Positions 40 to 15,223 of a stretch of DNA of 15,223 nt are shown piece by piece (position 1 is the first letter of the stretch; the number at the start of each line of letters is the position of its first letter). The stretch is from Chloroflexota bacterium (GTDB taxonomy: Bacteria; Chloroflexota; Anaerolineae; Promineifilales; Promineifilaceae). The DNA is taken from the NCBI GenBank assembly GCA_008501785.1, contig QQUD01000604.1, forward strand, positions 1-15,223. Direction: 5' to 3'. The position numbers and the translations under genes were made by a program. Below the pieces are notes generated by a model that saw only the letters and a list, made by a program, of their open reading frames with translations, was not told the origin of the DNA and did no database searches.

Positions 40-1194
40 TTACCGACTGCCTTTTTTGCCATTAGCGCGTAACTCGGTTGAGGAAATATCACGACGAAAC
101 TGTTCTGCCGGAATGTTGATGAACCGGTTATGTAGGTCTGTTGGCATTTGGCGTGTGTTTAGGTGATGGAAGGTGCCTTGCAGATCGGCACGTCCGGCGA
201 CTAAGAAGTGGCAGCCTAGCTGTTGAATTTCATGAAGGGCTGTCATCATTTGGGATGGGCTATTGTCATAGTAACGAGGGTGGATGATGCGAACGGCCGT
301 ATCATATCCCACAACAAACGTCGTCCCTGGAAACAGCCGTGCCTTTTCCACAAATGTGGGCGCATTGGTCACATAAACTGGCCAGCGTCCGGCAAACTGG
401 GCAATGCGGTCCAATAGGGTTTCTGACTTGAGTGGTGGTTTATCTGCATTGACGGCGGCGAGTTCAAAGGCGATGGGTTGGTTGTGGAGGGAAACGGCCG
501 TTTTTGCCAACTCCAAATGCCCATCATGCAGCGGATTAAAGGCCCCACACAGAAGTACTTTGGGTGATGTTTGCTTCGTTTTGATTTTTCCATGTGCTGA
601 TACAGCAAAAAAATCAAGCTGATGCTGATTAAGCTTGTACACAGCATCTGAAAAATTAGAAACCTTTTTTTTGAGTGTATCACCCGGAAGCAAGGGAACG
701 TCGACACGTAACTCAATTTGGCAGGCTGCTGCAATTGCATTCAGAATGAGGCTGCTGACCAGGTTTTCTTCTCCTGTGCGGTTGCGCGCGCCTTTCAGTA
801 AATGAATTTCGTATCTTGTCAGTTTTGTTGGTTGCCAGATAGCAATATGGGCACGATGTTCCCCCTTTTTGGGGCGATCGGTAATAATCGTGGCTGTACA
901 GGCGACACCGATAAGCGGTGTGTTGGTTTCGTCAAGCTGCCGTGCACGCGTCAGGGCGCGACCCGCCATTAATTTTGCCGTTTGATGGTGTACGTACTGG
1001 GGGGGCCTTTGTCCCAGAAAATCATTAAACGCTGCTTCACTGTACGGGACAAGTGCTTCTAACAAAGTGCGTGTGGCACCTGCGACGCTGAGAATATCAG
1101 ATAACGTTTGCGTGCCAGCACCAGCGGCAACATAGACAAGCTGTGTTGCACAGTCATGTATCGCCTGAACTAATTGTTGAGTTTTCACATTCAT
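40..1194 (-). CDS. CinA-like domain fused to NadD-like nucleotidyltransferase
   Basis: 384 aa, ATG start, TAA stop. The N-terminal half (about 1-165) resembles the CinA C-terminal (PncC, NMN deamidase) fold: around residues 22-60 the order AAGAGTQTLSDILSVAGATR then LVPYSEAAF follows the CinA pattern, but the usual SCTGG-type active-site stretch reads GAGTQ, so deamidase activity is doubtful. The C-terminal half (about 212-384) is an HxGH nucleotidylyltransferase: GAFNPLHDGH at 217-226 is the nucleotide-binding motif and ISSTELR at 370-376 matches the ISSTxxR signature of NadD and PPAT enzymes. Fusions of this order exist in plants and scattered bacteria. A role in NAD or nucleotide metabolism is inferred; the substrate cannot be read from sequence. 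No Shine-Dalgarno is visible, but a -10-like TTTAAT lies 7 nt before the ATG. Two ACGGCCGT palindromes lie inside. Domain calls are solid; the reaction is uncertain. Confidence 0.85.
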   Translation of the reverse strand: MNVKTQQLVQAIHDCATQLVYVAAGAGTQTLSDILSVAGATRTLLEALVPYSEAAFNDFLGQRPPQYVHHQTAKLMAGRALTRARQLDETNTPLIGVACTATIITDRPKKGEHRAHIAIWQPTKLTRYEIHLLKGARNRTGEENLVSSLILNAIAAACQIELRVDVPLLPGDTLKKKVSNFSDAVYKLNQHQLDFFAVSAHGKIKTKQTSPKVLLCGAFNPLHDGHLELAKTAVSLHNQPIAFELAAVNADKPPLKSETLLDRIAQFAGRWPVYVTNAPTFVEKARLFPGTTFVVGYDTAVRIIHPRYYDNSPSQMMTALHEIQQLGCHFLVAGRADLQGTFHHLNTRQMPTDLHNRFINIPAEQFRRDISSTELRANGKKGSR

Positions 1195-1201
1195 CGCAGA
1201 A

Positions 1202-1231
1202 ATTAAAACACGGTTGGCGCATTTGGACCAA
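1202..1231 (-). promoter_or_regulatory. Candidate leaderless promoter of the CinA/NadD-like fusion gene
   Basis: Read on the minus strand: TTGGTC (1231-1226), an 18-nt spacer, then TTTAAT (1207-1202), then 7 nt and the ATG at 1194. Transcription from this -10 would begin at or within a base or two of the start codon. No Shine-Dalgarno is present, which fits. The -35 is a weak match. Confidence 0.4.
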
Positions 1232-1261
1232 AAGTGGCGGGATAATGGTATCAGTCACAAC

Positions 1262-1290
1262 TTGTCCTATTATCTGAATTTTTGTTCAAT
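1262..1290 (+). promoter_or_regulatory. Candidate promoter of the glycosyltransferase gene
   Basis: TTGTCC at 1262-1267, 17 nt, TTCAAT at 1285-1290; each hexamer matches 4 of 6 sigma-70 consensus bases. It would give a leader of about 110 nt before the ATG at 1406. That leader contains a short ORF (1322-1384) behind a GAGG. Weak evidence. Confidence 0.25.
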
Positions 1291-1405
1291 TTTTCATTCT
1301 ATTTCATTTTGAGGATAATAGATGCTTGTTGTTGCTGCTCGGCGTTTGTTTTTTATTTCGAGAGCAGGTGGTGAAAGAAATTGATGCATAGAAAGGACGA
1401 TCTTT

Positions 1406-3610
1406 ATGCCGCTTGAAGTGCTGTATCTATGGGCTGTTTCTCTTTTAGTAATTATTGGTTTGGTGTATTTGTGGCTGCGGGTGCGAGCGAGACGCCTTTT
1501 TGGGGAACAGGATGCGCGTAGAACTGAGCATGATTTATTTGCGCGATTGGTGATGGGGATTTCTGGGGTGATGAAACGGCCGTTTTCATCTACACCTCCC
1601 TTACCCGATACTTCAAACAATGTCCCAGTAATTGATTGGAATGCGCCCGTCACGACTGAAGGGCTTCGGTTGTCTGTGTCTATCATGTTGGTCGCTACCC
1701 TCGCCCTGATTTGGATGGGACAAACCATATCAGCTAGCGTACCATCAGACCTTCAGCGGTGGGTATGGGGCTTGATGGTCGTCGGGGGGATTTTGTTTTT
1801 GTTGTCTGGGCAGGTAGCCATTCGCCAGCAAGTGCCTGCTTGGATTGTCGTGCCTGTTCGAAAAATTTGCGCATTTTTTGACATAGAGGCGGCTCAACTC
1901 GTCTTGCTCTTATTTGCCCCTGTTTTCGTCTGTGTAGCGATTATGGCTGCTGGGTTTGGCGCTATTGCGCGACATTGGTTTATTTCGGTATTGGCCTGGG
2001 TGGTTGCAGTTGGGGCAGCGATTGCCGGAAGCGTACGCTGGCCGATTTCGCAACGATTTAAAATTTCACGAACAGAGTTATGGTTTACGGTTGCCCTCTT
2101 GCTGGTCGCATTTTTTTTACGTGGGGCCGCAACCCAAGTGCTGCCCTATACATTTTCTGGTGATGAAGGCTCTGCTGGGCTAAGTGCGCTGGATTATTTG
2201 AATGGAAAAGCAAATAACCTGTTTACAATCGGGTGGTTCTCTTTCCCGTCCTTTTATTTTGCTTTGCAAAGTGTTGGTATTCGGTTGATGGGGCAAACGG
2301 TTGAGGCTTTGCGTGTGCCGTCGGCAGCAGCGGGGGCTTTGGCAGTGGTGGCTACGTATTGGTTGGCGCGCAGTTTATTTGATCGGAAAACGGCCGTTCT
2401 CGCCGGTCTCTACATGATGGCTTCCCATTATCACATTCATATTAGCCGAATTGGACTGAACAACGTGTGGGACAGTTTGTTTGGCGCAGTGGCAATTTTG
2501 GGTTTCTGGCATGGCTGGAAAACGGGGCGGCGCATTTGGTATGTGGTTTGTGGGTTAGCAATTGGGTTTGGTCAATATTTTTATGTGAGCATTCGCGTGC
2601 TGCCACTGTTGTTTTTGTTATGGGCTGTGTTTGCCTTTTGGCAACAACGAGACACGTTTCGGCAACGGCTGCCGGGAATGATGTTGGCTGCTTTTATTGC
2701 GTTGATTGTGTTTTTGCCGCTGGGTATCTTTTTCTGGAACCACCCATATGAGTTTAACGCGCCATTGGCACGGGTAACGATGATGGGAGAACGGCTGGCT
2801 CAAGAAGTAGCGCATAGGGGACAATCTGCCACGTCAATCTTGTGGGAGCAATTTAAATTGGCTGTGCTGGGATTTACGCAGATACCGATGCGGCTGTTGT
2901 ACGATCCTGGTTCACCCTTGCTGCTGACAGGAGCGGCAACCTTGTTCTTGGTCGGGATTGCCTGGGGGGTGTCGCATTTTGATTTGCGATTTTTGTTAAT
3001 CTTTTTACCATTGGTTGCAGCGATTGCTTCGAATACGGTTAGCCAAAGCCCGCCCGCCTCGCAGCGATACATTTTGGCGATGCCGTTGGTAGCGATTTTA
3101 GTTGGGGTACCATTGGGCTTGTTGGGTAATTGGCTGGACAAGATGTGGACTGAACGTAAGTTTGTGGGGATGCTGGTAACGGCCGTTCTCATGTTTGGGG
3201 TCGTTTATCAAGACGTATCTTATTATTTTTTCGAAGTATACGATTCTTATATTTTGGGTGGCATTAATACACTCATCGCAACGGAAGTCGTTCACTATCT
3301 TGAAGAGCAAGAAACGGTTGAACAAGACGTGTTTTTCTTTGGATTTCCGCGCATGGGGTACAACAGCTTGTCTACAATTCCTTATCTGGTTCCAGAGAAG
3401 CGCGGGCGTGATGTTATTGAGCCGCTACAAGAACCGCCCAATTGGCAGTTGAACGGCCCCACGATTTTGATCTTTTTGCCAGAGCGCGTATCGGAGTTAG
3501 CGTCGGTGCGTGTGGTGTACGATAACGGCCGTTATCGAGAGTTCTATACTGAAAATGATCTATTCCTCTTTGCTTCCTACGAAATTCCTGACCTGACAGC
3601 CGCAGAATAA
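1406..3610 (+). CDS. Multi-pass membrane glycosyltransferase, GT39/PMT-like (ArnT-like)
   Basis: 734 aa with a dozen or so hydrophobic segments. An N-terminal membrane segment (about 5-25) and a cytoplasmic stretch precede the transmembrane core. FSGDEGSAG at 250-258, just after a membrane segment, is the loop of PMT/ArnT-type GT-C enzymes that carries the catalytic acidic residue (D253 or E254). The next part (WFSFPSFYF, then LRVPSAAAGALAVVATYWLA) is typical of the PMT_2 family. Such enzymes transfer a sugar from a polyprenyl-phosphate donor to protein or lipid on the outer face of the membrane; acceptor and sugar are unknown here. AAAGGA at 1392-1397, 8 nt before the ATG, supports the start. 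It converges on the YhaM-type gene across an inverted-repeat terminator. Four ACGGCCGT sites lie within. It might instead act on lipids or cell-wall glycans; the thread linking it to the Thr-rich secreted proteins downstream is inference. Confidence 0.85.
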   Translation: MPLEVLYLWAVSLLVIIGLVYLWLRVRARRLFGEQDARRTEHDLFARLVMGISGVMKRPFSSTPPLPDTSNNVPVIDWNAPVTTEGLRLSVSIMLVATLALIWMGQTISASVPSDLQRWVWGLMVVGGILFLLSGQVAIRQQVPAWIVVPVRKICAFFDIEAAQLVLLLFAPVFVCVAIMAAGFGAIARHWFISVLAWVVAVGAAIAGSVRWPISQRFKISRTELWFTVALLLVAFFLRGAATQVLPYTFSGDEGSAGLSALDYLNGKANNLFTIGWFSFPSFYFALQSVGIRLMGQTVEALRVPSAAAGALAVVATYWLARSLFDRKTAVLAGLYMMASHYHIHISRIGLNNVWDSLFGAVAILGFWHGWKTGRRIWYVVCGLAIGFGQYFYVSIRVLPLLFLLWAVFAFWQQRDTFRQRLPGMMLAAFIALIVFLPLGIFFWNHPYEFNAPLARVTMMGERLAQEVAHRGQSATSILWEQFKLAVLGFTQIPMRLLYDPGSPLLLTGAATLFLVGIAWGVSHFDLRFLLIFLPLVAAIASNTVSQSPPASQRYILAMPLVAILVGVPLGLLGNWLDKMWTERKFVGMLVTAVLMFGVVYQDVSYYFFEVYDSYILGGINTLIATEVVHYLEEQETVEQDVFFFGFPRMGYNSLSTIPYLVPEKRGRDVIEPLQEPPNWQLNGPTILIFLPERVSELASVRVVYDNGRYREFYTENDLFLFASYEIPDLTAAE

Positions 3611-3619
3611 AATTTCATT

Positions 3620-3667
3620 GCAAAGGCGCAAAGATGCTAATTTTTCTTTGCATCTTTGCGCCTTTGC
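3620..3667. terminator. Perfect 18-bp inverted repeat, bidirectional terminator
   Basis: Arms 3620-3637 and 3650-3667 are perfectly complementary with a 12-nt loop containing TAATTTTTC. It lies between the stops of two converging genes (3610 and 3676), so it can end both transcripts. The right arm is itself built of near-repeated octamers (CTTTGCAT, CTTTGCGC, CTTTGCGT at 3646-3669), which suggests a repeat-derived origin. Confidence 0.75.
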
Positions 3668-3675
3668 GTGAGACT

Positions 3676-4626
3676 TTATTTAAAATCGGTAGGATGACGC
3701 AATTCCGTATTAAACATTGGACTGTACTTTGATGTCCATGGCCCTTCGCCATCATCATTGTTGACATAATCGAGAAATCCTTGCACCCGACTATCTAGCA
3801 AATCAATTTGATGTAGCAGCACAGCTTCCAGGGTTTTTGGCACAACGGGAGACCCCCATTCTTGCGTACCATGATGCGATCCAATAAGGTGGATGAGATG
3901 ACGCAGTTCCGCCTGTGGAAAGTTGTCAATCTCTGCTGCGGCTTGTTCCACCATCACAATGCCGCGAATGATGTGGCCTACTAAACGGCCGTCTTCCGAG
4001 AAGTCAAATGCTTCATCAGTTGTATATTCAATCACCTTGCCCAGATCATGTAACAAAGTACCGGCCATTAACAAGTCCTTGTTGACATCAGGGTAGTGGT
4101 TGATCAATGTTTCTGCCAACACAGCCATGCTCAAGGTGTGCTCAAGCAGTCCACCGATGTAAGCATGGTGCATGGCGCGTGCGGCTGGTGCGTTAGAAAA
4201 GCGCGACAAAAATTTTTCATCGAGCAGCAGGTGTGTGACCAGTGATTGCCATGGTTCAGCCAGTGCAGCGGTGCGCTCTTTGAGTTCGGCGATCATTTCA
4301 GATAACGGCCGTTTACTCGAAGGCAAAAATTCGCTCATATCCGGATTGTGCATATCATTCAAATCAGTAATACTGACTTGCAATGCATCCTTATAATTTG
4401 ACGCCCGTCCACTGACAAGCACCACCATCCCAGGACGCACCCAATGTTCTACATAATCCGGTACATCCCAAAACACACAGGCAACCTGGCCTGTTTTATC
4501 CCGCAATGTCCCTAATAAAAATGGTCGATCATTCTTCGTTTTCCGGCGCGATACATCTTGCAATAAAAAAGGTTCATTCATCAATTCATTGCCAGATTTC
4601 AAATCTTCAATAAAAGTCGTTTTCAC
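3676..4626 (-). CDS. yhaM: 3'-5' exoribonuclease, YhaM family (OB fold + HD domain)
   Basis: With the GTG start at 4626 the protein is 316 aa, close to the 314 aa of Bacillus YhaM. AAGGGGG (4631-4637) lies 4 nt upstream of this GTG; the longer version from ATG 4683 adds 19 residues with no family resemblance and no ribosome binding site. Residues about 1-95 form an OB-fold nucleic-acid-binding domain (FLLGTLRDKTGQV then VSGRASNYKDALQV). The HD hydrolase domain follows: H162 in GGLLEHT, H192-D193 in LLHDLGKVIEYT, SHH near 249-251, and D274 in HQIDLLD, a full set of metal ligands. YhaM enzymes degrade RNA and single-stranded DNA from the 3' end in the cytoplasm. It is divergent from the ubiX-like gene and convergent with the glycosyltransferase gene. 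Two ACGGCCGT sites lie within it. Confidence 0.9.
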   Translation of the reverse strand: MKTTFIEDLKSGNELMNEPFLLQDVSRRKTKNDRPFLLGTLRDKTGQVACVFWDVPDYVEHWVRPGMVVLVSGRASNYKDALQVSITDLNDMHNPDMSEFLPSSKRPLSEMIAELKERTAALAEPWQSLVTHLLLDEKFLSRFSNAPAARAMHHAYIGGLLEHTLSMAVLAETLINHYPDVNKDLLMAGTLLHDLGKVIEYTTDEAFDFSEDGRLVGHIIRGIVMVEQAAAEIDNFPQAELRHLIHLIGSHHGTQEWGSPVVPKTLEAVLLHQIDLLDSRVQGFLDYVNNDDGEGPWTSKYSPMFNTELRHPTDFK

Positions 4627-4695
4627 TTTACCCCCTTGACAGAAACCCAAGTGATGGGTGCTGCAAGTTTTGAATAAGGCCATTGTAAATGGATT

Positions 4696-4723
4696 TTGGT
4701 TTTCTGACTACTTATCCTAAAAT
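4696..4723 (+). promoter_or_regulatory. Candidate leaderless promoter of the ubiX-like gene
   Basis: TTGGTT (4696-4701), 16 nt, TAAAAT (4718-4723), then 7 nt to ATG 4731. No Shine-Dalgarno precedes the ATG, so a transcript starting at the ATG is likely. This supports 4731 over the upstream in-frame ATG at 4689, which lies within the promoter. Confidence 0.4.
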
Positions 4724-4730
4724 CAAAAAC

Positions 4731-5069
4731 ATGAAACGTTTAATTGTGGCCATATCAGGCATCGCTTATTCCTTCAGTGACAACTTGTTGCTGCGTGCGG
4801 CTGATGTGATCCGCAAAGATCGAAGGCGGTTGGTACTCGTACCACGCGAGACACCGCTGCACCTGGGTCATTTGCGCATGATGGTGCAAGTGACTGAAAT
4901 AGGTGGCATTATTGTGCCGCCCGTGCCTGCCTTTTACCATCACCCCAAAACAATTGATGACATTGTTAACCAAACGGTGAATCGCGTTTTGGATTTGCTA
5001 GACATCGAATTGCCCCAAGATTTTTTTTCGCGTTGGCAAGGAGGACAAGCAAACGTTGACAAACCATAA
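4731..5069 (+). CDS. ubiX: Internally deleted UbiX-family flavin prenyltransferase
   Basis: 112 aa, against about 190 for normal UbiX. The first ten residues MKRLIVAISG are the normal N-terminus. The next are IAYSFSDNLLLRAADV, which in complete UbiX follows the KTLSG motif some 84 residues later. From there to the C-terminus (VPRETPLHLGHLRMM, PPVPAFYHHP, NQTVNRVLD, FSRWQGG) the match to E. coli UbiX as I remember it is close. The reading frame stays open. UbiX makes prenylated FMN, the cofactor of UbiD-type decarboxylases. The C-terminal residues that bind phosphate and prenyl donor (R in RAADV, RE in PRETP, Y in AFYH, R in NRVLD) remain, but most of the Rossmann core and FMN site is gone, so it is probably inactive unless another gene supplies the rest. 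It overlaps the next gene by 14 nt. Family is certain; whether the deletion is biological or an assembly fault is open. Confidence 0.85.
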   Translation: MKRLIVAISGIAYSFSDNLLLRAADVIRKDRRRLVLVPRETPLHLGHLRMMVQVTEIGGIIVPPVPAFYHHPKTIDDIVNQTVNRVLDLLDIELPQDFFSRWQGGQANVDKP

Positions 5070-5532
5070 CCTGCAACAGGCCGCACTCGGGTTTTTAGCA
5101 TCCCATCAAGTTATGACCTTAGCCACAAACGGTCCGCTCGGTTTATGGGCAGCGGCCGTTTTTTACATGAACGATGGTTTCCGTTTATATTTCCTTTCCG
5201 CTGGTCACACGCGTCATGCGCAAAACATGGCACACACGCCGCATGTCGCCGGCACCATTCAAGAAGATTATGCACAATGGGAAAAGATTAAAGGGATGCA
5301 GTTTGAGGGGGAAATCATGCGACTTTCAGGCACTGCACGTATTAAAGCAATCACGGCATATGGTAAAAAATATTTATTTGTCACAAAAAAAATACCTACC
5401 ATACAAAAGGCATTGTCAAAGGTGAACTGGTACGCGCTGGATTTGACACAATTATATTTAATTGATAACAGCAAGGGGTTTGGTCATCGGGATGAAATAC
5501 CGCTTACTCAACCACGTCATCAAGGTCTTTAA
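5056..5532 (+). CDS. YhbP-like FMN-binding split-barrel (PPOX-class) protein
   Basis: 158 aa from a TTG start at 5056, with AGGAGG at 5039-5044 upstream (11-nt spacing). Starting at the next in-frame ATG (5113) would remove the first helix and strand. The sequence follows E. coli YhbP (UPF0306) along its length as I recall it: an N-terminal helix and TLAT strand, the pair AVFYMNDGFRLYFLS and TRHAQNM, VAGTI, GMQFEGEIMRL near the middle, and the C-terminal IDNSKGFGHR. These pyridoxamine-phosphate-oxidase-like barrels bind FMN or related flavins; the reaction is unknown. The start lies inside the end of the ubiX-like gene, so translational coupling is likely, and both proteins are flavin-related. 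The 3' end overlaps the opposite-strand NYN gene by 29 bp. It carries one GCGGCCGT variant of the iterated palindrome. Confidence 0.8.
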   Translation: MTNHNLQQAALGFLASHQVMTLATNGPLGLWAAAVFYMNDGFRLYFLSAGHTRHAQNMAHTPHVAGTIQEDYAQWEKIKGMQFEGEIMRLSGTARIKAITAYGKKYLFVTKKIPTIQKALSKVNWYALDLTQLYLIDNSKGFGHRDEIPLTQPRHQGL

Positions 5533-6691
5533 CAAGGCGACTCAGATATTTGGCATATTTTGGCGTATCGTATAAAGCAATGGCCGCAGCTTCAATATCA
5601 AACGGTTCTGACAATCCCAATATTTCACGTAAATAAACTGCATCGCATCTTAGTACAGCTTCCTGAAACGGCCGTTCTTCAGCCAGTTGCAATGTTACCG
5701 GTGCAATAGAAAGCGACTTCGCTTTTCGAATGGTTAGCACCTGTCCCCGACGTGCAACTAACATCAATGCGTTAATCTGATTTTTAGAGATTTCTTGATT
5801 TTTTGCAGCGTACTGTTTGGCTAAGGTATCTACTAACTCACGCCACCTTATTTCTGAGCGGTGTTGCAATACGGCAATTAGATTTTTCAAAATACTAAAT
5901 CGCACAGGAGCTGCTATCACGCGCAGCTTTTTCTTTTTTAAGCTGCTGCGGTAGCGTAAGTGCAATTCAGGCATTGCAGATTTTTTCTGCGGAATACGTG
6001 CATAAATGGTGGTGCCTTCTTGTTCAATCTCAACCAGGTGTGGATAGCTTTCCAAGAATTTGCGGAAGCTGCCATTAGCCGGTGGTGTGCGATCAAAGGT
6101 CCCCTGACTTAAAATTGACATGCGCTGCTTCAAGACGCTAGCACGGACTCGACTTTCATTTTCCAACAACTCATCCAATGCCTGGCTCAGTAAATCTTCA
6201 ACCTGCACTTCAGACATTTTTTGATTGGGCAGCATATCTTCATAATAAAGATATTGATCGCAGATGGTGACAAGGCTAGAACTGGCTGTTGGTTTCACGC
6301 CCACACCAATGACTTGTTTGCCTCGTTTACGAAGCGATTGCACCAAGGGTGTAAAATCACGATCTCCGGTAATCAAAACGTAGGTGCTGTATTGGTTGCC
6401 GTCTACCAGCGTGTCCATTGTGTCTACCACAATTTGCATGTCTGCTAGATTTTTGCTGAAGTTGTTGAGTCGAACTGTTGATTGGGTTGTGAATCCAGCA
6501 GTGGCTAATTCTTTGAGAATCTTTTGCCCCTGGCGGGAATCGCCATAAGAGCGGCGTAGTACAACACGGCCGTTTGTGACCCGCACGATTTCCTTCAAAA
6601 TAAGATTGATGTCAAAGGTTAAATTTGATTGTTTTGCCCCGATTGCGATATTGTCCAAATCGAGAAAGATAGCTACATCATTGTTCTTCAC
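5504..6691 (-). CDS. NYN-domain (PIN-like) RNase with LOTUS/OST-HTH domain
   Basis: 395 aa from a GTG at 6691; a G-rich GGGGGAC lies about 11 nt upstream. Residues 1-155 are a NYN/DUF88 (LabA-like) nuclease domain: FLDLDNIA with D11, D13 and N14, DMQIVVDTMD with D84 and D90, and LITGDRDF with D110 and D112. This is the acidic set that binds metal in PIN-like nucleases, and it is complete. Residues about 163-233 match an OST-HTH/LOTUS RNA-binding winged helix (DLLSQALDELL, then SVLKQRM, then SFRKFLESYP and a short beta hairpin). The remaining 160 residues include a second helical region (about 270-325) of the same general type but not clearly recognised. It probably cleaves or processes RNA in the cytoplasm; the target is unknown. 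It is divergent from the exported-protein gene at 7076. Two ACGGCCGT sites lie within. Confidence 0.85.
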   Translation of the reverse strand: MKNNDVAIFLDLDNIAIGAKQSNLTFDINLILKEIVRVTNGRVVLRRSYGDSRQGQKILKELATAGFTTQSTVRLNNFSKNLADMQIVVDTMDTLVDGNQYSTYVLITGDRDFTPLVQSLRKRGKQVIGVGVKPTASSSLVTICDQYLYYEDMLPNQKMSEVQVEDLLSQALDELLENESRVRASVLKQRMSILSQGTFDRTPPANGSFRKFLESYPHLVEIEQEGTTIYARIPQKKSAMPELHLRYRSSLKKKKLRVIAAPVRFSILKNLIAVLQHRSEIRWRELVDTLAKQYAAKNQEISKNQINALMLVARRGQVLTIRKAKSLSIAPVTLQLAEERPFQEAVLRCDAVYLREILGLSEPFDIEAAAIALYDTPKYAKYLSRLVKDLDDVVE

Positions 6692-6808
6692 TAGAATTGC
6701 GTCCCCCTGTTATTAGAACGCTAAAATAAATGCCAAATAGTGTCAGTCGATTCAATTTGAAATGTTGGAATTTATCTAGATATTCTACTAGATTCAGCCG
6801 TTCTCGCA

Positions 6809-6828
6809 ATTGTTTCCCGGGAAACAAT
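6809..6828. promoter_or_regulatory. Palindrome 1, parS/Noc-like binding site
   Basis: ATTGTTTCCCGGGAAACAAT is a perfect 20-bp palindrome. Its core TGTTTCCCGGGAAACA (6811-6826) has the outer TGTTTC of the ParB site parS (TGTTTCACGTGAAACA) and the central CCCGGG of the Bacillus Noc site (ATTTCCCGGGAAAT). The protein that binds it is not in the window. It could also be an operator for a local regulator. Confidence 0.6.
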
Positions 6829-7027
6829 AAAAAGGGAGCTTCGTTTCCAAGAAACTATGATTTAATTATAGGACTTTGGCTCCCAGGACGAATGATTTTG
6901 TATCAAAAGCAACGCATTCTTTGATATTTATGTGAAGTATGCTACCATAAAGTTCTGACACTATGTCAACTACTGTTTTGCAAGGTGCGACATTTGTAGA
7001 TTTCGTGGACAGTAAAACAGTTTGCAT

Positions 7028-7043: not shown

Positions 7044-7075
7044 TTTTCTACACCGAGATGTGATGGAGGTGAATC

Positions 7076-7702: not shown

Positions 7703-7713
7703 GAAAGAAGGTG

Positions 7714-7797: not shown

Positions 7798-7803
7798 AGC
7801 GGC

Positions 7804-8697: not shown

Positions 8698-8719
8698 GCC
8701 TAAAGAACGTTCATTTGTA

Positions 8720-8778
8720 AAAAGGAGTCGAGACTTTAGCCGGGAAAAATCGAACCGGCTAAAGTCTCGACTCCTTTT
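8720..8778. terminator. Perfect 24-bp inverted repeat terminator
   Basis: Arms 8720-8743 and 8755-8778 are fully complementary, with an 11-nt loop (GAAAAATCGAA). The arms begin with AAAA and end with TTTT, so the hairpin reads as an intrinsic terminator on either strand. It sits 22 nt after the methyltransferase stop. The arm length and exact symmetry are more than a terminator needs and suggest a dispersed repeat element. Confidence 0.75.
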
Positions 8779-8825
8779 GGCTTTGTAGTTGTCAAGGCAA
8801 AATTATCCCTCACAAAAATATTATG

Positions 8826-8831
8826 TATAAT
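8826..8831 (+). promoter_or_regulatory. -10 box TATAAT of the dam-like gene (leaderless)
   Basis: TATAAT then 6 nt then ATG 8838, the same geometry as upstream of 7804. A poor -35 (TTATCC at 8803-8808) lies 17 nt upstream. The box overlaps the alternative ATG at 8823, so 8838 is the likely start. Confidence 0.5.
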
Positions 8832-8837
8832 TGCGTC

Positions 8838-9668
8838 ATGACTTTACAAAAAACGGCCTCCGCTGCGCCTATCTTGAAATGGGCAGGTGGTAAACGACGA
8901 CTCCTAAAACAGTACGCCCTTCATTTTCCCCCAGTCGAACAAATCAATCATTACTACGAACCGTTTATTGGCAGTGCCGCCGTTTTTTTGCATTTGCAAC
9001 CAGAACATGCGACGCTCTCTGATCGGAATGCGCGGCTGATTGAGGTGTATCAAACGATTCAGCAGGATGTGGAAGGGGTGATTGATGCCTTGCAGCCACA
9101 CAAAAATGAGTCAGATTATTATTATCAAATTCGGGCGCAGGTGCCGGAGACGCTAACGGCCGTTCAGCGCACCGCCCGTCTCATCTTCCTCAACAAAACT
9201 TGTTACAACGGTTTGTATCGTGAAAACCGACGTGGCCAATTTAATGTGCCATTTGGCCGCTACAATAACCCAACCATTTGTGACAAAAAAAGATTACGCA
9301 ATGTTTCTTGTTTGCTGCAGAGCGTTGAGTTATTGGCGGTCGATTTTGATGTTGCAGTAGCTGATGCCCAACCAGGCGACTTTGTCTACTTTGATCCGCC
9401 CTATGTGCCGCTCAACAAAACGAGCAACTTTACTGAATATGACCAACATGGCTTTGACGAATCTGCTCACCGCCGTTTAGCGAGTACGGTTGAACGGCTA
9501 ACAGATAATGGCGTGAATGTTATGTTAAGTAACTCGAGTGCCGATTTGGTGTATGCGTTGTACGATAACGGCCGTTACACCCTCCACGAAATCTCCGCCC
9601 GCCGCAACATCAACAGCAAAGCCAACCTGCGCGGCCCTGTCAAAGAACTGCTCATCCTCAACTACTAA
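8838..9668 (+). CDS. dam: Dam-type (D12 class) DNA adenine-N6 methyltransferase
   Basis: 276 aa, the usual length for Dam/DpnM enzymes. Motif X is PILKWAGGKRRLL (11-23), motif I is YYEPFIGSAAVF (39-50) and the catalytic motif IV is DPPY (186-189). The block CYNGLYRENRRGQFNVPFGRY (122-142) is characteristic of the GATC-recognising branch of D12 methylases, so the substrate is probably adenine in GATC, using S-adenosylmethionine. No cognate endonuclease gene adjoins it: upstream is a terminator and downstream an unrelated secreted hydrolase. It therefore looks like an orphan methylase, which could serve repair, replication timing or gene regulation; that role is inference. Two ACGGCCGT sites lie within, suggesting long residence in this genome. 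The ACGGCCGT palindrome contains no GATC, so this enzyme does not explain it. Confidence 0.92.
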   Translation: MTLQKTASAAPILKWAGGKRRLLKQYALHFPPVEQINHYYEPFIGSAAVFLHLQPEHATLSDRNARLIEVYQTIQQDVEGVIDALQPHKNESDYYYQIRAQVPETLTAVQRTARLIFLNKTCYNGLYRENRRGQFNVPFGRYNNPTICDKKRLRNVSCLLQSVELLAVDFDVAVADAQPGDFVYFDPPYVPLNKTSNFTEYDQHGFDESAHRRLASTVERLTDNGVNVMLSNSSADLVYALYDNGRYTLHEISARRNINSKANLRGPVKELLILNY

Positions 9669-9755
9669 ATTACTAACGGACAGGAACGAATACAAATAAA
9701 AAATAAATTTATGTACCCGCTTTCTTCGTAATCTGTTGTTTACTAAAACCTGTTG

Positions 9756-9785
9756 TTGTCACTTTTCCCCTAATCGATTTAAACT
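9756..9785 (+). promoter_or_regulatory. Candidate leaderless promoter of the glycoside hydrolase gene
   Basis: TTGTCA (9756-9761), 18 nt, TAAACT (9780-9785), then 7 nt to ATG 9793. No Shine-Dalgarno is seen. The 124-bp gap after the dam-like gene shows nothing else. Confidence 0.4.
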
Positions 9786-9792
9786 TACGCGC

Positions 9793-11586
9793 ATGAAGTG
9801 GATGAAATTATTTTTATTATGTGTACTTTTGTTGTTAACGGCCGTTATCCAAACCCACGCCGCCCCCGCAGAACGGCCGTCACAAGCCGCCGTCGATTGG
9901 CGCTTTGGGGTGGTCGAGAGCTACGAGAATCCTGGTCAAGCATCAAGTCTGGGCGTGTCGTGGACGCGCGTGAAATTCCATTGGGCGGCTGTGCAGGCTG
10001 GCGGGCCTGGAACATGGACACCTAATGTCAGCGAGGCGCAAATCAGCAATGAAATCGCCTCGGGGCGGATGGTGGTGGGACTGTTGATTGGTGTGCCGGA
10101 TTGGGCGTGGAATAATGGCCTACCTGCCGGACTGGAGTTGCCACACGATGATCCCAACAATACCTGGGGTAATTATGTGCGGGAGGCGGTTTCGCGGTAT
10201 AACGGCCGTATCAACCACTGGATCATCTGGAACGAACCCGATGTGAACGATCCCAATGCTCCCGGCTACACCTGGCCTGGGTCAGTTGACCAGTTTTTCC
10301 AATTGCAACGCACAGCCTATCTGGTTGCGAAAGAGACCAATCCTAATGCCGTCATTCATTTGCCAGCCTTTACGCACTTTTGGGATCCAAACTACATTTA
10401 CAACTTTCTAGATAAGATTGTGGCCGACCCAGCAGCGGATGGCAACAACTACTATTTTGATGTAGTTACGGCGCATCTCTACTTTCAACCCGACAGCATT
10501 TTTAACATCATTCAATCGTTTTATGGTGCGGTGGGCAGTCGCGGCATTCCCTGGAAGCCGGTTTGGTTGGTGGAGACAAACGCGCCGCCGATGGATGACC
10601 CATCGTGGCCGGTGCCAAACTGGACGCTGAAGGTGACGCAGCAGGAACAGGCCGCATTTATACCACAGGCATTGGCGGTGTCGTTGGCCGCCGGGGCGCA
10701 GCGGATCGCGATTTACAAGATGATGGACACGCCGGGAGATGTGGCGGCCAATCCTGAGCCGTTTGGCCTGATTCGTATGGATGGCTCACGCCGGCCCGCG
10801 TTTACGACGTATCAAGTGGCGATTCAATATTTGGCAGGCATGCAGGGTGTTTCGCGTGAACGATGGGATACAGTCGGGCAGGTGCGCTTGGATCAAGGAT
10901 CGCATTCAACAACAGTTCTGTTCTCACGCTTACCGGCTCCCCAACAGGCACAGGTTGCCGCGACGGCGAATACGGCCGTTTTGGTTGACATGTGGGGCAG
11001 TCGCTCCAGCATCGCGGCACAGGACGGCATTTTCACGGTAGACTTGCCCGGTGCGCCCTGTACACAAACGGCGGGGGATTATTGCATGATTGGTGGTACG
11101 ACTTATTATTTGGTACAAGCTGTTGAGGGTGGTTCGTCTCCTGGTGCGCCCTCGGCACCATCACCATCCCAACCCAATCCACCAGCCGCCACAGCCACCA
11201 CAGACCCGAACCAACCCACCACTGAGCCAACTGAAGCACCCCCTCAGGTGACAAACACGCCCACAGACGAACCAACGCCTGAACCGACGGCAACGGAAAC
11301 GGCCGTTCCCACTCACACCCCAACCCCAACAAAATCACCAACATCCACCCCCACACCGGAACCAACCGCTACGCCAACCAGCGAACCAACCAATACACCG
11401 ACAAACGAGCCAACCGAAACGGCCGTTCCTGCAACTGAAGTGGCACAGGTGGGGGTAACGGCCGTTACCCCTGTCACTGTCCTGCCTGAACCAGAACCAT
11501 CAAGCTCATTATCTTACTGGTTTATTAGTGCGGGTATGTTGTTGCTTGCTGGTCTTGCTGGATGGGTGGTAAAAAGAAAAGGTTGA
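9793..11586 (+). CDS. Secreted, membrane-anchored glycoside hydrolase (TIM barrel, clan GH-A-like)
   Basis: 597 aa from ATG 9793; upstream in-frame codons would put a Cys-rich stretch before the signal peptide. Residues 1-23 (MKWMKLFLLCVLLLLTAVIQ onward) are a signal peptide, probably cut near THA-APA. The catalytic barrel (about 35-380) has HWIIWNEPD with E148 as acid/base and WKPVWLVETNAPP with E261 as nucleophile, the pattern of clan GH-A families such as GH5 or GH39. A small beta domain follows to about 445. Residues 446-569 are a Pro/Thr/Ser/Glu-rich linker with repeated EPT and TPTP units. Residues 570-597 are a membrane segment ending KRKG, which would tether the enzyme outside the cell. 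The exact family and sugar target cannot be assigned. Seven ACGGCCGT sites occur here, the most of any gene in the window. Confidence 0.85.
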   Translation: MKWMKLFLLCVLLLLTAVIQTHAAPAERPSQAAVDWRFGVVESYENPGQASSLGVSWTRVKFHWAAVQAGGPGTWTPNVSEAQISNEIASGRMVVGLLIGVPDWAWNNGLPAGLELPHDDPNNTWGNYVREAVSRYNGRINHWIIWNEPDVNDPNAPGYTWPGSVDQFFQLQRTAYLVAKETNPNAVIHLPAFTHFWDPNYIYNFLDKIVADPAADGNNYYFDVVTAHLYFQPDSIFNIIQSFYGAVGSRGIPWKPVWLVETNAPPMDDPSWPVPNWTLKVTQQEQAAFIPQALAVSLAAGAQRIAIYKMMDTPGDVAANPEPFGLIRMDGSRRPAFTTYQVAIQYLAGMQGVSRERWDTVGQVRLDQGSHSTTVLFSRLPAPQQAQVAATANTAVLVDMWGSRSSIAAQDGIFTVDLPGAPCTQTAGDYCMIGGTTYYLVQAVEGGSSPGAPSAPSPSQPNPPAATATTDPNQPTTEPTEAPPQVTNTPTDEPTPEPTATETAVPTHTPTPTKSPTSTPTPEPTATPTSEPTNTPTNEPTETAVPATEVAQVGVTAVTPVTVLPEPEPSSSLSYWFISAGMLLLAGLAGWVVKRKG

Positions 11587-11663
11587 TAGCTTTTCAACAA
11601 AAAACAAGGTAGAGGGCAATCTATTTTGTGCCGTTCATTTGTCTTCTAAAATAATTCCGCTAA

Positions 11664-11684
11664 GATAATGAGGGTTATGATAAT
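11664..11684 (+). promoter_or_regulatory. Possible -10 boxes before the ATPase gene
   Basis: GATAAT occurs twice (11664-11669 and 11679-11684), each followed by G, in a 124-bp gap. TTGTCT at 11639-11644 may be a -35 for the first (19-nt spacing). Weak, but nothing else in the gap stands out. Confidence 0.25.
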
Positions 11685-11710
11685 GGCCATTGTCTTAGAG
11701 GAAGCATGCA

Positions 11711-13135
11711 ATGTTATTTGATCGAGAAGCAGAGATAGATGAATTAAACTTTGTTCTAAACGAACCTGGAAGTCAATTTCTGATTGTGTCAGGGCGTCGT
11801 CGATTGGGAAAAACGACTTTGCTTGTAGAATGGGCTAAAGTCAGCCAAAAGCCGTCACTTTATTGGGTTGCCAGTCGCATATCAGCAGCCCAATTATTGA
11901 AATCCTTTTCTCAGGCTGTTTATGCCCACCTTCACCCAGATGCAGTGGTTGATTCAAGCTTTAGCTATCCTACTTGGGAAATGGCATTGCAGCAATTAGC
12001 TGAGGCGGCAGTAAAAGATCGTTTCGTTGTTATTTTAGATGAGTTTGCCTATGCAGCAGAAGTCGAACCTGGATTGCCATCAATCTTACAGAATGTTTGG
12101 GATCATACTCTGAAGCAAACGCAGATATTTTTGGTTTTATGTGGTAGCCATATTGGCATGATGAAGAAATTGCAAGCATATCAAGCCCCTTTATTTGGAA
12201 GGATTACCGGGCAACTAGAATTAAAGCCGCTTCCTTTTTCAGCCACAGAAGCATTCTTACCAGCTTATTCATTGGAACGACGACTCGCCGTGTATGCAAT
12301 TTTGGGGGGTGTGCCTGGTTATCTAGAATGTTTTAATGATCAGCTTTCATTGGCCGATAATGTACGACGACATTTACTGCGCCCTACCGGCATGTTTCGT
12401 ATCGAACCTCAATTTTTGCTTCAAGATGAGGTACAACAACCACATAATTATTTAGCAATTCTATTGGCTATTTCTTCTGGACACCATACACAAAGTGATA
12501 TTCGTCGCACAACTGGCATTGAGCATGTGACATCGTATCTAAATCGACTGCAGGAGTTACACTTTGTTCGTCGAGATATTCCTGCTACTGTACCATCCGC
12601 CAAAAGAGCCGCATCACGAAAGGGACGATATGATTTATCTGATCCCTATATGCGCTTTTATTACCGGTTTATTCATCCTCATCAGCACCTACTGGCACAA
12701 GGTTTGCACGATTGGCTGTGGCAGCTAATCAGCGAACAATTGCGTGCCTTTATTGGCACCTATGCATTTGAGGAATTATGCCGTGAGTGGGTTCTCACAA
12801 AAGCAAGGATGAATGAACTGTGCTTCATGCCAGAATATGTGGGAAGCCATTGGAGCCGTGAGGCACAAATAGATGTCGTCGCAATTAATTGGCGATTAAA
12901 AGAGATTTTACTAGGTGGGGCTAAGTGGACAGGTGATCCTATCAGGCGCAATATTGTGCGTGGTTTGGTGGAAAAAACAGGATTGATTGTACCCGATGAT
13001 GGTAATGGTTGGAAGGTACACTATGTATTTTTCAGTCGTTCTGGATTTACCGAAGCGGCCGTTTCTGAATCAAAAAAATATCAGGCCATGCTGGTTAATT
13101 TAGAATCGCTCGGACATACATTGGGGGCTGGTTGA
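11711..13135 (+). CDS. Archaeal-type AAA ATPase with C-terminal DUF234 nuclease-like domain
   Basis: 474 aa; AGAGGA at 11697-11702, 8 nt upstream, supports the ATG. The protein opens LFDREAEIDEL, the usual start of the ATPase_2 (PF01637) family. Walker A is SGRRRLGKTTL (27-37) and Walker B is FVVILDEFAY (105-114). A winged helix follows (about 255-295, HTQSDIRRTTGIEHVTSYLN). The C-terminal DUF234 part has the conserved LSDPYMRFYYRFI and FEELCREWV, then a PD-(D/E)xK-like core. In that core D388 (AQIDVV) is kept, but the usual acidic residue of the GExKW motif is glycine (G403 in LLGGAKW). The family is widespread in archaea and mobile regions of bacteria; its role is unsettled. The gene looks more AT-rich than its neighbours and carries no exact ACGGCCGT, only one GCGGCCGT near its end, consistent with later acquisition. 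ATP binding is confident; nuclease activity is doubtful. Confidence 0.88.
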   Translation: MLFDREAEIDELNFVLNEPGSQFLIVSGRRRLGKTTLLVEWAKVSQKPSLYWVASRISAAQLLKSFSQAVYAHLHPDAVVDSSFSYPTWEMALQQLAEAAVKDRFVVILDEFAYAAEVEPGLPSILQNVWDHTLKQTQIFLVLCGSHIGMMKKLQAYQAPLFGRITGQLELKPLPFSATEAFLPAYSLERRLAVYAILGGVPGYLECFNDQLSLADNVRRHLLRPTGMFRIEPQFLLQDEVQQPHNYLAILLAISSGHHTQSDIRRTTGIEHVTSYLNRLQELHFVRRDIPATVPSAKRAASRKGRYDLSDPYMRFYYRFIHPHQHLLAQGLHDWLWQLISEQLRAFIGTYAFEELCREWVLTKARMNELCFMPEYVGSHWSREAQIDVVAINWRLKEILLGGAKWTGDPIRRNIVRGLVEKTGLIVPDDGNGWKVHYVFFSRSGFTEAAVSESKKYQAMLVNLESLGHTLGAG

Positions 13136-13235
13136 TGTTTTGCTCTGTGCAATTTTTACAATTGTGGGACAGGTGTCTTGCTTTTATTGGGTCATGTATC
13201 GTGGCGTTTTAGAATATCAAAAGGCTATTAAAAAG

Positions 13236-13285
13236 CGGATGGGGGGAATACGGATAAAAAATAATATCCGTATTCCTCCCATCCG
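13236..13285. terminator. 21-bp inverted repeat after the ATPase gene
   Basis: Arms 13236-13256 and 13265-13285 pair with one G-T wobble and an 8-nt A-rich loop. It lies 100 bp after the ATPase stop and ends only 17 nt before the ATG at 13303, so transcription of the next gene must start at the hairpin's edge or read through it. No strong T-run follows, so termination efficiency is uncertain. Confidence 0.6.
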
Positions 13286-13302
13286 TATCTAATCAAAAAA
13301 AT

Positions 13303-14613
13303 ATGAAAAAACTCCCAATTCTTATTACAATCATTATTCTTATTTGGGGATGGCGAGCCAGTGTGAAAATGGTAATTGCCCAGCCTACCATCACCCAAAA
13401 TGAAGCAGTTGTCGATTTTCCCAATGAAATCACCTTCACTTTGGAACTGGCAGAAGGCAGCAATGTGGTTGATGCCGTTCTCACTTACGATGTGGACCGG
13501 TTTAGCTGTTTGGATGCTGCTTCGGATGTGCCGTTGGAGGTTGAAGGGAATCGGATTGAATGGGAATGGGTGCTGTCCCGGTCGGGCAACCTGCCGCCGG
13601 GAACGTCGGTTTGGTGGGAATGGACGCTGATTGATGCGAATGGGAATGAAACGGCCGTTCCGCGCCAAACCCTCACCATCATGGATGACCGCTTTGAGTG
13701 GCGCATGTTGGAAGATGAAGGTGTGCATCTTTATTGGTACGAGGGCGATCTGGTGGGACCGCTGTTGCTGGAAGCGGCCGTTTCTGGCCTGGTCACCCTC
13801 GAAGCCGAAATGGGCATCGAATTGCAAGATGATGTGCAAATTTTTATCTATGGCGATGCCAATGAGATGCGAGAAGCGCTGCTATATGTGCAAGGCTGGG
13901 CAGGTGGAGCTGCTTTTCCCGACTACAACACAATTTTGCTGGGCGTTGAGCCGCGTTCTGCCGATACCTGGGGGCTTGATGTCGTGCCGCATGAATTGGC
14001 GCATTTGGTGGTAGACCAATTTGATCGCAGCTGCGTCGGTGGCAGTCGTCCCACGTGGTTAGATGAAGGGTTGGCCATGGTTGCAGAAGGGGACCCAGGT
14101 GCTGATGTGATCGAAGACCTCAATCAAGGCATTAACGGGAATGGGTTTGAGCCGCTGCGTAGTTTGAATGGATCGTTTGCGGCCGATTATGATCAGGCAG
14201 GAATGTCGTATAGTCAAAGCTACAGTGTTGTGGACTATTTGTTGGAAACGTATGGGGCTGAGCAGATGCAGCAGCTATTAACCGTGTTGGCTGACGGCAA
14301 TGGATATGATGAATCGCTTGAGCAAGTGTATGGATTTAATGTGGATGGGTTGGAAAGTGAATGGCGAGCAGCAATTGGTGCGCCATCTCGACCCATTCCG
14401 CCAACACCGACGCGGTTACAGGCTGCGGCTGTGCCGACCTATGCCTTATCTGGCGTACCTCAAACAATGCCAACCCCACCTTCTGCCGCAGAACCGCCGC
14501 CAGAAACAGCAACTCCAGAATCATCTGGGGTGGGTATTTGTGGATTGGGTATTATTTTGCCGCTGATGTTGGTTGGGTTTGTGGGGCGGCGGAAGAGGGG
14601 GGAGTATGTATAA
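13303..14613 (+). CDS. Secreted, membrane-anchored gluzincin metallopeptidase (peptidase MA-like)
   Basis: 436 aa. Residues 1-26 are a signal peptide (KKLPILITIIILIWGW core, likely cut after IAQ). Residues about 30-130 form a beta-rich domain with the look of an Ig-like fold. The catalytic domain (about 135-370) contains HELAH (230-234) and TWLDEGLAM with E255 as third zinc ligand, the HExxH...E arrangement of gluzincins in the peptidase_MA-like group. A Pro/Thr-rich linker (about 375-410) and a hydrophobic C-terminal segment ending GRRKRG follow, the same plan as the glycoside hydrolase at 9793. It probably cleaves proteins or peptides at the cell surface; the substrate is unknown. No Shine-Dalgarno precedes the ATG. 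Its stop overlaps the start of the downstream lipoprotein gene by 8 nt, so the two are probably one operon. One exact ACGGCCGT (13651) and one GCGGCCGT (13774) lie within. Confidence 0.85.
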   Translation: MKKLPILITIIILIWGWRASVKMVIAQPTITQNEAVVDFPNEITFTLELAEGSNVVDAVLTYDVDRFSCLDAASDVPLEVEGNRIEWEWVLSRSGNLPPGTSVWWEWTLIDANGNETAVPRQTLTIMDDRFEWRMLEDEGVHLYWYEGDLVGPLLLEAAVSGLVTLEAEMGIELQDDVQIFIYGDANEMREALLYVQGWAGGAAFPDYNTILLGVEPRSADTWGLDVVPHELAHLVVDQFDRSCVGGSRPTWLDEGLAMVAEGDPGADVIEDLNQGINGNGFEPLRSLNGSFAADYDQAGMSYSQSYSVVDYLLETYGAEQMQQLLTVLADGNGYDESLEQVYGFNVDGLESEWRAAIGAPSRPIPPTPTRLQAAAVPTYALSGVPQTMPTPPSAAEPPPETATPESSGVGICGLGIILPLMLVGFVGRRKRGEYV

Positions 14614-15223
14614 GAGAAGAGTGACACGGAGTTTCACAGAGAAGAGAGGGGGAAGAGAATTTGTTTTAGTTCGGTGGGTGCTGCTTGCGGTTACTGTTTT
14701 TGTGGTGTTGGGTTGTAATTTTGTGGATCGGGTGCTGCTTTCTGGGGGAGGTAGTTTGGGGGATTATGATCGGAGCAGTACGCTGTTTTTGTCTGGGAGT
14801 CAGCCGCGCACGTTGGACCCGGCCACAACGCTGGGGGGGCCAGATGGCCCGTTGGGACATATTTTTAGTGGCTTGACGACGCTGGATACGAATTTGCAGG
14901 TGCAGCCTGAGTTAGCGGCTGGCTGGACGGTGAGTGAGGATGGGCTAGTGTACACGTTTTATTTGCGCAAGGATGCGGTGTTTCATAACGGCCGTTCCCT
15001 CACCACCACCGACATTATCACCTCCTGGGAACGCGCCGCAGATCCCGCAACTGGTTCAGACACAGCACAAACTTATTTGGGTGATATTGAAGGGGTGGTG
15101 GATAAGCTAAACGGCCGTTCCACCCAAATCAGCGGACTCCACGCTATCGACGACCACACGCTTGAAGTACGCTTGATGGCTCCTGTCGTTTACTTCCTTT
15201 CAAAATTGGCCTATCCGGTAGCC
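14606..15223 (+). CDS. ABC transporter substrate-binding lipoprotein, family 5 (partial)
   Basis: The reading frame is open from ATG 14606 to the right edge (206 codons), so the gene is cut. GAGGGGGG just before the ATG can serve as ribosome binding site; GTG 14621 is an alternative start. After a basic N-terminus, LLAVTVFVVLGC is a lipoprotein signal peptide with Cys37 as the lipidated residue. The mature part follows family 5 extracellular solute-binding proteins (DppA/OppA-like): SGSQPRTLDPA, IFSGLTTLDTNLQVQPELA, GWTVSEDGLVYTFYLRKDAVFHNG, and ITSWERAADP. These bind peptides, nickel or other small solutes outside the membrane for an ABC importer. The permease genes would be expected beyond the edge. 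The 8-nt overlap with the peptidase gene suggests coupling: surface proteolysis followed by peptide uptake is a reasonable inference. Two ACGGCCGT sites occur, both read as NGR. Confidence 0.85.
   Translation, partial: MYKRRVTRSFTEKRGGREFVLVRWVLLAVTVFVVLGCNFVDRVLLSGGGSLGDYDRSSTLFLSGSQPRTLDPATTLGGPDGPLGHIFSGLTTLDTNLQVQPELAAGWTVSEDGLVYTFYLRKDAVFHNGRSLTTTDIITSWERAADPATGSDTAQTYLGDIEGVVDKLNGRSTQISGLHAIDDHTLEVRLMAPVVYFLSKLAYPVA

Follow-up and report, generated by a model that had tools for sequence, protein, structure and literature searches.

Introduction

Among described systems, the closest to the element reported here are the highly iterated palindromes (HIPs) of cyanobacteria, of which HIP1 (GCGATCGC) has been known since a first report in 1995 (cited in PMC4390886). 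In the parts of Elhai (2015, PMC4390886) drawn on here, HIPs are given a frequency of around 500–2,500 per million bases, deviations from HIP1 are commonest at its first and last base, cyanobacterial relatives carry alternate HIPs, some of them around the same core (TCGATCGA), and a methylase link is reported for HIP1. Here we describe ACGGCCGT, an octamer palindrome that recurs throughout a contig of 15,223 bases (47.4% G+C; QQUD01000604.1) from a Chloroflexota bacterium, hereafter called the window. The word is a real and strong feature of a whole clade: it occurs genome-wide in relatives of the window, where its copies are far better conserved than the sequence around them, also at synonymous positions. 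The word is probably a site of the HIP class: a putative factor would recognize it in double-stranded form, and a selection-like force of about 4 (in 2Ns units) would maintain it. The word would thus be the counterpart, in another phylum and with another word, of an element whose function, to our knowledge, is still open.

The comparison with HIPs can be made point by point. As with a HIP, a single octamer palindrome stands far above all others (22 copies against 3 for the runner-up in the window, and a 46- to 85-fold excess in six relatives). Its frequency, about 990–2,100 per Mb in 27 of the 56 genomes of the order to which the relative G001 belongs (genome sizes rounded to 0.1 Mb), falls within the range of 500–2,500 given for HIPs (PMC4390886). 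One-off variants are biased to the first and last base (TCGGCCGT and GCGGCCGT, the latter also 3.6-fold enriched in one word-poor pool), as described for HIP1 (PMC4390886), and relatives carry other words around the same core, here TCGGCCGA and GCGGCCGC, there TCGATCGA (PMC4390886). Unlike HIP1, the word belongs to another phylum, has other letters and another core (CGGCCG instead of CGATCG), and no methylase common to the word-rich genomes was found among the classes searched. GCGATCGC itself was not among the leading 8-mer palindromes listed for the window or its relatives. Hence ACGGCCGT is not HIP1 proper, and it shares those HIP features that could be tested.

Other systems are further away. 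A restriction-modification target is usually an avoided site, whereas the site here is strongly over-represented. The palindromic repeat of Caldithrix abyssi, related by its authors to REP (repetitive extragenic palindromic) elements, is likewise an over-represented palindrome outside cyanobacteria, but it is 18 bases long, and of its 38 exact copies 13 overlap annotated coding regions (PMC5317091). Among the matches listed in our literature search, which left most subscription journals outside its coverage, there was no report of ACGGCCGT as a genome-wide repeat.

Results

The original prediction, made from the letters of the window, had counted ACGGCCGT 22 times in 15.2 kb and the 10-mer AACGGCCGTT 16 times. 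Both counts were borne out, the means in 200 dinucleotide-preserving shuffles being 0.21 (maximum 2) for the octamer and 0.03 for the 10-mer. Of 27 occurrences of CGGCCG in the window, 25 lie within one mismatch of AACGGCCGTT. All 22 words fall inside open reading frames (ORFs), as listed below; each was found by sequence match unless described otherwise, and the strand is that of the ORF.

293..300, word in ORF 40–1194 (minus), DTAVRI frame
494..501, word in ORF 40–1194 (minus), KTAVSL frame
1576..1583, word in PMT_2 ORF 1406–3610 (plus), MKRPFS frame
2390..2397, word in PMT_2 ORF 1406–3610 (plus)
3179..3186, word in PMT_2 ORF 1406–3610 (plus)
3525..3532, word in PMT_2 ORF 1406–3610 (plus), DNGRYR frame, centre of an 18-bp perfect palindrome (3520–3537)
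3985..3992, word in HD/OB (YhaM-like) ORF 3676–4683 (minus)
4305..4312, word in HD/OB (YhaM-like) ORF 3676–4683 (minus)
5668..5675, word in NYN ORF 5504–6691 (minus), EERPFQ frame
6566..6573, word in NYN ORF 5504–6691 (minus)
8823..9668 (plus), Dam-family D12 adenine methylase (TIGR00571, 277 bits), a candidate writer of the word that was rejected
9156..9163, word in Dam ORF 8823–9668 (plus), LTAVQR frame
9568..9575, word in Dam ORF 8823–9668 (plus), DNGRYT frame
9838..9845, word in ORF 9736–11586 (plus)
9873..9880, word in ORF 9736–11586 (plus)
10202..10209, word in ORF 9736–11586 (plus)
10972..10979, word in ORF 9736–11586 (plus)
11299..11306, word in ORF 9736–11586 (plus), ETAVPT
11419..11426, word in ORF 9736–11586 (plus), ETAVPA
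11458..11465, word in ORF 9736–11586 (plus), centre of a 20-bp perfect palindrome (11452–11471)
13651..13658, word in Peptidase_MA_2 ORF 13303–14613 (plus), ETAVPR
14988..14995, word in ORF 14573–15223 (plus, runs off the window)
15111..15118, word in ORF 14573–15223 (plus, runs off the window)

The first base of the word on the coding strand stands at codon position 1, 2 or 3 in 11, 7 and 4 cases, respectively, and the predicted peptides DNGRY, ETAVP, LTAVQ, KRPFS and ERPFQ are all present. The genes concerned belong to unrelated families (cytidylyltransferase-like, PMT_2, HD/OB, NYN, Dam and Peptidase_MA_2, together with two ORFs without a tested family). ACGGCCGT is therefore a DNA-level feature found in all frames and in unrelated genes, in line with the earlier proposal that the force acts on the DNA and not on the protein. 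The proposal that the word occurs only inside genes held for the window, where non-ORF sequence amounts to about 1.2 kb and only about 2 words are expected; it did not hold in six relatives, in which a simple ORF caller gave 1.48–2.12 words per kb in ORFs and 0.56–2.0 per kb outside them. In these relatives, too, codon position 1 was the commonest phase (48–57% per genome), followed by position 2, with position 3 the rarest.

We then followed the word through relatives of the window in a survey covering one class of the Chloroflexota. Of 3,696 relatives of the window's YhaM-like protein, 120 were considered; those with names were labelled Anaerolineales, Ardenticatenaceae, Promineifilaceae, Leptofilum or Chloroflexi, and metagenome proteins were up to 94% identical to it. 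Loci with Chloroflexota-type titles (L001–L037) were taken from 80 loci aligned in one-genome-per-species data; ACGGCCGT was clearly the top 8-mer palindrome in 23 of these 37 and shared first place in L026 (one copy) and L032 (three copies). Genomes with at least 990 ACGGCCGT per Mb were called word-rich. Twenty-three such genomes (21 of the 36 in one panel, plus G226 and G281) carry 5,641–15,176 copies each, against 40–459 for the reversed control. In a tree of 42 YhaM rows, the window, whose best identity there was 66%, lies in a 13-row group (support 85/83) whose other 12 members are all word-rich.

In the genomes sampled, high counts are confined to part of the class. Among 298 genomes sampled evenly from it, every genome with more than 1,000 copies belonged to the order of G001 (19 of the 298 are of that order), and the 279 genomes from other orders had at most 430 copies each. 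Within the order, 29 of 56 genomes have more than 2,800 copies. In a tree of rpoB from 50 genomes, one clade was word-rich in 23 of its 24 rows (fork support 82), the exception, G009, being nested inside. As to the comparison with chance, the counts were not near expectation: under a second-order Markov model with the words masked, observed and expected numbers in six sampled genomes were 346/5.4, 465/5.9, 191/3.2, 166/3.6, 157/2.0 and 127/1.5. The same model gave 2.9 expected against 3 observed in the pooled word-poor genomes G009, G016 and G026, and 5.9 against 12 in pooled Promineifilum-like loci. The HIP1-like behaviour with a different word that had been suggested from the window is thus borne out by genome-wide extent and all-frame occurrence and, as follows, by conservation.

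Conservation was measured between pairs of loci in the stretches around the YhaM gene, with control octamers from the same pairs. Synteny was found to be broken when orthologues of one 4-kb stretch were mapped. Words were intact in 37 of 38 cases in both directions for L019/L021 (93.5% identity; controls 57–58%), in 45/49 and 46/48 for L006/L012 (88.4%; controls 39–42%), in 43/47 both ways for L006/L015 (84.1%; 34–35%), in 42/45 and 43/51 for L012/L015 (82.8%; 29–30%), in 26/32 both ways for L001/L002 (82.4%; 26–29%), in 21/27 and 21/29 for L001/L007 (79.2%; 20–22%), in 13/21 and 13/15 for L012/L014 (75.2%; 10–13%), and in 5/10 and 5/11 for the window and L017 (69%; 8–9%). Between loci 79–88% identical, 72–96% of words thus stayed intact, against 20–42% of control octamers. 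The protection extends to fourfold-degenerate sites, of which 0–10% differ inside words and 15–50% outside (14 directed pairs): 0–1.4% against 15–36% in the L006/L012/L015 and L019/L021 groups, 5.7–9.3% against 42–44% in the L001/L002/L007 group, and 2/32 and 3/31 against 50% for L012/L014. Amino-acid differences affected 78 of 1,454 codons overlapping words and 8,922 of 67,779 elsewhere, counts that are not independent because pairs were taken in both directions.

Shared positions of the word can also be followed in rpoB. Five or more A..T genomes have the word in common at each of five columns, and it was present in 14/15, 13/15, 16/23, 7/9 and 7/23 of the A..T genomes with sequence there; word-poor G026 carries it at one of the five. 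In the rpoB gene of word-poor G009 (L418), ACGGTCGT and ACGGTCGC stand at two shared word columns, and G016 also has ACGGTCGC at the second. These variants are perhaps words decayed by C-to-T change.

The size of the bias was estimated with a model in which a fixation bias S per site scales the loss rate by S/(e^S-1) and abundance by e^S. For the four closest pairs the loss-rate ratios were 0.048, 0.070, 0.083 and 0.100, and abundance in the six genomes predicts 0.053–0.084. From this rough match of conservation to abundance in the closest pairs comes a figure, a per-site bias of about 4, with which any mechanism has to agree. The fit is equally compatible with selection and with a conversion or repair drive.

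The unit of the feature is the octamer. In aligned orthologous stretches conservation covers all eight of its positions and drops to about background at the flanking bases. The 5' flanking base is A at a frequency of 0.58–0.60 in G017, G226 and G001 and of 0.45 in G021, and C at 0.36–0.37 in G012 and G015. The AA..TT extension of the window is such a lineage preference; of the octamer and 10-mer originally put forward, both were over-represented, and only the former is the unit. TCGGCCGT (2.7- to 9-fold) and GCGGCCGT (1.5- to 3.5-fold) were the sole single-mismatch neighbours enriched in all six word-rich genomes. The remaining single-mismatch variants reached at most 2.1-fold in any of the six, and all variants summed gave 0.97- to 1.87-fold; in pooled G009, G016 and G026, GCGGCCGT was at 0.44-fold and TCGGCCGT at 1.4-fold. 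Transversion neighbours of the core were sparse in word-rich genomes and also in one word-poor pool, and therefore do not decide between selection and a repair or conversion drive. Spacing between words was near exponential (Kolmogorov–Smirnov p = 0.07; coefficient of variation 0.80–1.14), and no period was obvious by inspection of the six genomes, a reading made without a formal test for period. Distances below 50 bp were rarer than expected in G226 and G017.

Relatives that use other words mostly keep the core CGGCCG and change the outer pair. We sampled 40–81 kb per genome (G331–G333 pooled) and compared unmasked counts with a third-order Markov model for octamers and a second-order model for hexamers. 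TCGGCCGA had 57 copies in G323 (36.5-fold) and 74 in G129 (16.7-fold), and GCGGCCGC had 98 copies in 60 kb of G213 (L443–L445; 20.7-fold), a genome where GGCGCC and GGGCCC are almost absent. CGGCCG without a fixed outer pair was enriched in G184 (7.7-fold), G031 (8.0-fold, leaning to A..T), G331–G333 (7.75-fold) and G028 (3.85-fold), and reached only 1.48-fold in the Promineifilum-like G102. A different core within the same order was found in G325, where TGCCGGCA has 43 copies in 44.5 kb (L211–L215; 12.7-fold) and 3,665 in the genome, and CGGCCG is nearly absent (0.1-fold). No dominant palindrome was seen in 26–30 kb each of G009, G016 and G026. In the rpoB tree G129, G184 and G323 fall together; support is weak at several of the deep forks, and therefore the number of word switches is not fixed. 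Same-position comparison in rpoB offered too few sites in T..A and G..C genomes to show switching.

A gene that might read or write the word was sought among Dam-like, C5, N6/N4 and L168 methylases, MutL and ComEC. The window Dam is a true Dam-family enzyme, whose best solved relative is the DpnII methylase (2dpm). It was rejected as the methylase of the word: proteins close to it (61–64% identity) occur in word-poor G009, G016 and G026, and three of the 23 word-rich panel genomes (G004, G006 and G018) gave no match to this single-protein query, which may have missed distant D12 families. C5 methylases had no match in 10 of the 23 word-rich genomes (39-genome panel). Strong N6/N4 methylases were sporadic among the matches listed; there were weak matches in word-rich G001, G002, G003 and G010 and matches in word-poor G026, and among those listed there was none in word-poor G009 and G016, nor in G028, a genome enriched for nothing more than the bare core. 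A solitary methylase family represented by L168, which partly resembles known adenine methylases, was rejected as well, with some match in 34 of 56 genomes and close relatives in only 9 (57–72% identity in the 8 further genomes of the order). As read from the ORFs, the L168 gene (1321–2271) lies between glycosyltransferase-like and deacetylase-like ORFs. MutL and ComEC did not discriminate: each occurs in 25 of the 27 word-rich genomes and in 25 of the 29 others, 50 of 56 in all. Words numbered 183 against 243 expected in 41 methylase loci, so that recently acquired DNA is only mildly depleted; the corresponding figures were 629 against 543 in YhaM loci and 144 against 109 in D12 loci.

The word was also found on phage-like and mobile DNA. 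A scan of IMG/VR for two words 15–45 bases apart returned at least 120 stretches. Among those listed, 30 had at least five words and a more than 20-fold excess, and 11 were denser than 2.1 per kb, the top value that any host reaches as a whole-genome average. A single host locus reaches 2.8 per kb (L015, 58 words in 20.9 kb), and therefore only the densest stretches (3.0–4.2 per kb, some of them short) exceed the hosts, and the excess is modest. In L316, 9.3 kb with 18 words, both the large and the small terminase subunit are encoded. A second contig, that of L283 and L331, has 49 words in 13.2 kb and 20 in 7.1 kb; its genes include those for an integrase, ParA, an FtsK/SpoIIIE-like protein, an anti-repressor and a transglycosylase, so that it could be phage DNA or some other element. 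PHROG matches were obtained for none of three proteins of L279 and two of nine of L318.

Discussion

Our results are best accounted for, in our judgement, by a HIP-class site. We suggest that a sequence-specific factor would read the palindrome as double-stranded DNA, that lineages would differ in the outer-base specificity of this factor, and that a fixation bias of about 4 in 2Ns units per site would gain and keep copies, be it selection or a repair or conversion drive acting alike. The benefit could go to any word-carrying DNA in the cell, as is suggested by the word-dense phage-like DNA, and the likeliest reader would be a protein that serves general DNA maintenance, in repair, recombination or self-recognition. 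A change of word requires a change in such a reader, and where the word has been lost the reader may be lost as well. Relatives with other outer pairs, together with lineages that have no dominant word, turn the HIP question into a comparative one.

Several observations weigh against this account. No reader gene was found among the families searched, and the named loci come from genomes most of which are metagenome-assembled and may be incomplete. Loss ratios were 0.16 for L001/L002 and 0.18 for L001/L007, against 0.053 predicted from the abundance in G001, and 0.15 for L012/L014 and 0.30 for the window and L017; the less close fit of these pairs makes a single constant bias too simple, and the misfit could possibly come from heterogeneity among sites or from saturation. 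In rpoB loci only about half of the expected words were found (51 against 99), and distances below 50 bp made up 0.8% in G001, against 8.3% expected. The pooled word-poor Promineifilum-like loci had 3.6-fold GCGGCCGT and 1.8-fold TCGGCCGT, and the GCGGCCGT excess is therefore not special to word-rich genomes. As regards mobile DNA, selecting close pairs in the IMG/VR scan favours dense stretches, only one stretch is clearly phage, and 14 of 30 proteins from six stretches had no PHROG match. Finally, ACGGCCGT is missing from the 3.2 kb of L169 (G003:C117), although G003 is word-rich, and the methylase gene of L169 adjoins a terminase-like ORF, by ORF reading only.

Among the alternatives, a methyltransferase modifying CGGCCG or ACGGCCGT might, through methyl-directed mismatch repair, make and keep words as a by-product, as in Elhai's model of HIP1. 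GGCC, which lies within the word, is a methylation target in Synechocystis (PMC6560206), MutL is widespread in the order, and N6/N4 matches were absent, among those listed, from word-poor G009 and G016 and from G028. The methylation target had already been proposed for the window, but gene content gives it no support, because none of the methylases searched for is common to all word-rich genomes; other classes and assembly gaps remain. Dam relatives and C5 enzymes fail in three and ten of the 23, respectively (other D12 families lay outside the search), L168 close relatives are confined to nine of 56 genomes, and the N6/N4 matches of four word-rich genomes are weak, the one in G003 adjoining the terminase-like ORF. 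Word-poor G026 does have N6/N4 matches, MutL is equally common in word-poor genomes, and genomes with over-represented HIP1 but without a CGATCG methylase were noted by Elhai (PMC4390886). We regard this explanation as unlikely. That the excess is an artefact of composition or codon usage, built from common codons (ACG GCC, GGC CGT) or local repeats, is scarcely credible. The preference for codon position 1 would agree with it, but the masked-Markov test refutes it in the samples used (46- to 85-fold excess, as against 3 words for 2.9 expected in the word-poor pool), words also occur in non-ORF DNA, fourfold sites are protected, and in word-rich loci the counts of all other 8-mer palindromes are far lower.

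Two further explanations call on known functions of short repeated sites. Chi sites are over-represented octamers that run through genes, and they are directional and strand-biased. ACGGCCGT resembles them in its over-representation through genes and as a possible self mark, and a recombination or defence nuclease that reads the word and spares or repairs the DNA carrying it would agree with the word-dense phage-like stretches (11 above 2.1 per kb among at least 120). The word is, however, a perfect palindrome and so has no orientation, the density of host locus L015 leaves only a modest phage-like excess, and the terminase-linked stretch of G003 has no words at all; we consider a Chi-like or self-marker site quite unlikely. 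The known DNA uptake sequences and uptake signal sequences are short, non-palindromic and oriented, and reach thousands of copies at a density of about one per kb. The copy density of ACGGCCGT is alike, and competence machinery preferring word-bearing DNA could raise copy numbers through transformation, ComEC being found in 50 of the 56 genomes from the order. Against this stand the perfect palindrome, which known uptake sequences are not, and the density on phage-like DNA, which is no obvious prediction of uptake. ComEC does not track the word, being equally common where it is absent or different. The uptake explanation, which the original prediction had also considered, is in our view slightly less likely still than the Chi-like one.

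Starting again from the preferred HIP-class site, a bolder version can be drawn, which we consider possible but doubtful. This would be a second, independently evolved HIP system outside cyanobacteria, in which one lineage-wide reader of the CGGCCG core switched its outer-base specificity several times (A..T, T..A, G..C, loose) and rewrote thousands of sites each time, with phages and mobile DNA carrying the word as a self mark for a non-methylase maintenance or defence machine. If this were true, HIP words would be a general bacterial phenomenon with a common logic.

Minor observations concern other elements in the same material. By ORF reading, the methylase ORF of L169 resembles a ParB-methylase fusion. 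In the Promineifilum-like G102 (L457–L459), TTAGGAAT, TTACGAAT, TTCCTAAT and TTCGTAAT have 16–18 copies each in 60 kb (18- to 61-fold), and these recurring words perhaps form a repeat family. Dispersed repeats of about 35–60 bp, resembling REP elements or miniature inverted-repeat transposable elements, lie in G012:C1 (L175:4679–4735 and 5012–5047), with dozens of matches in G006, G015, G281 and G322.

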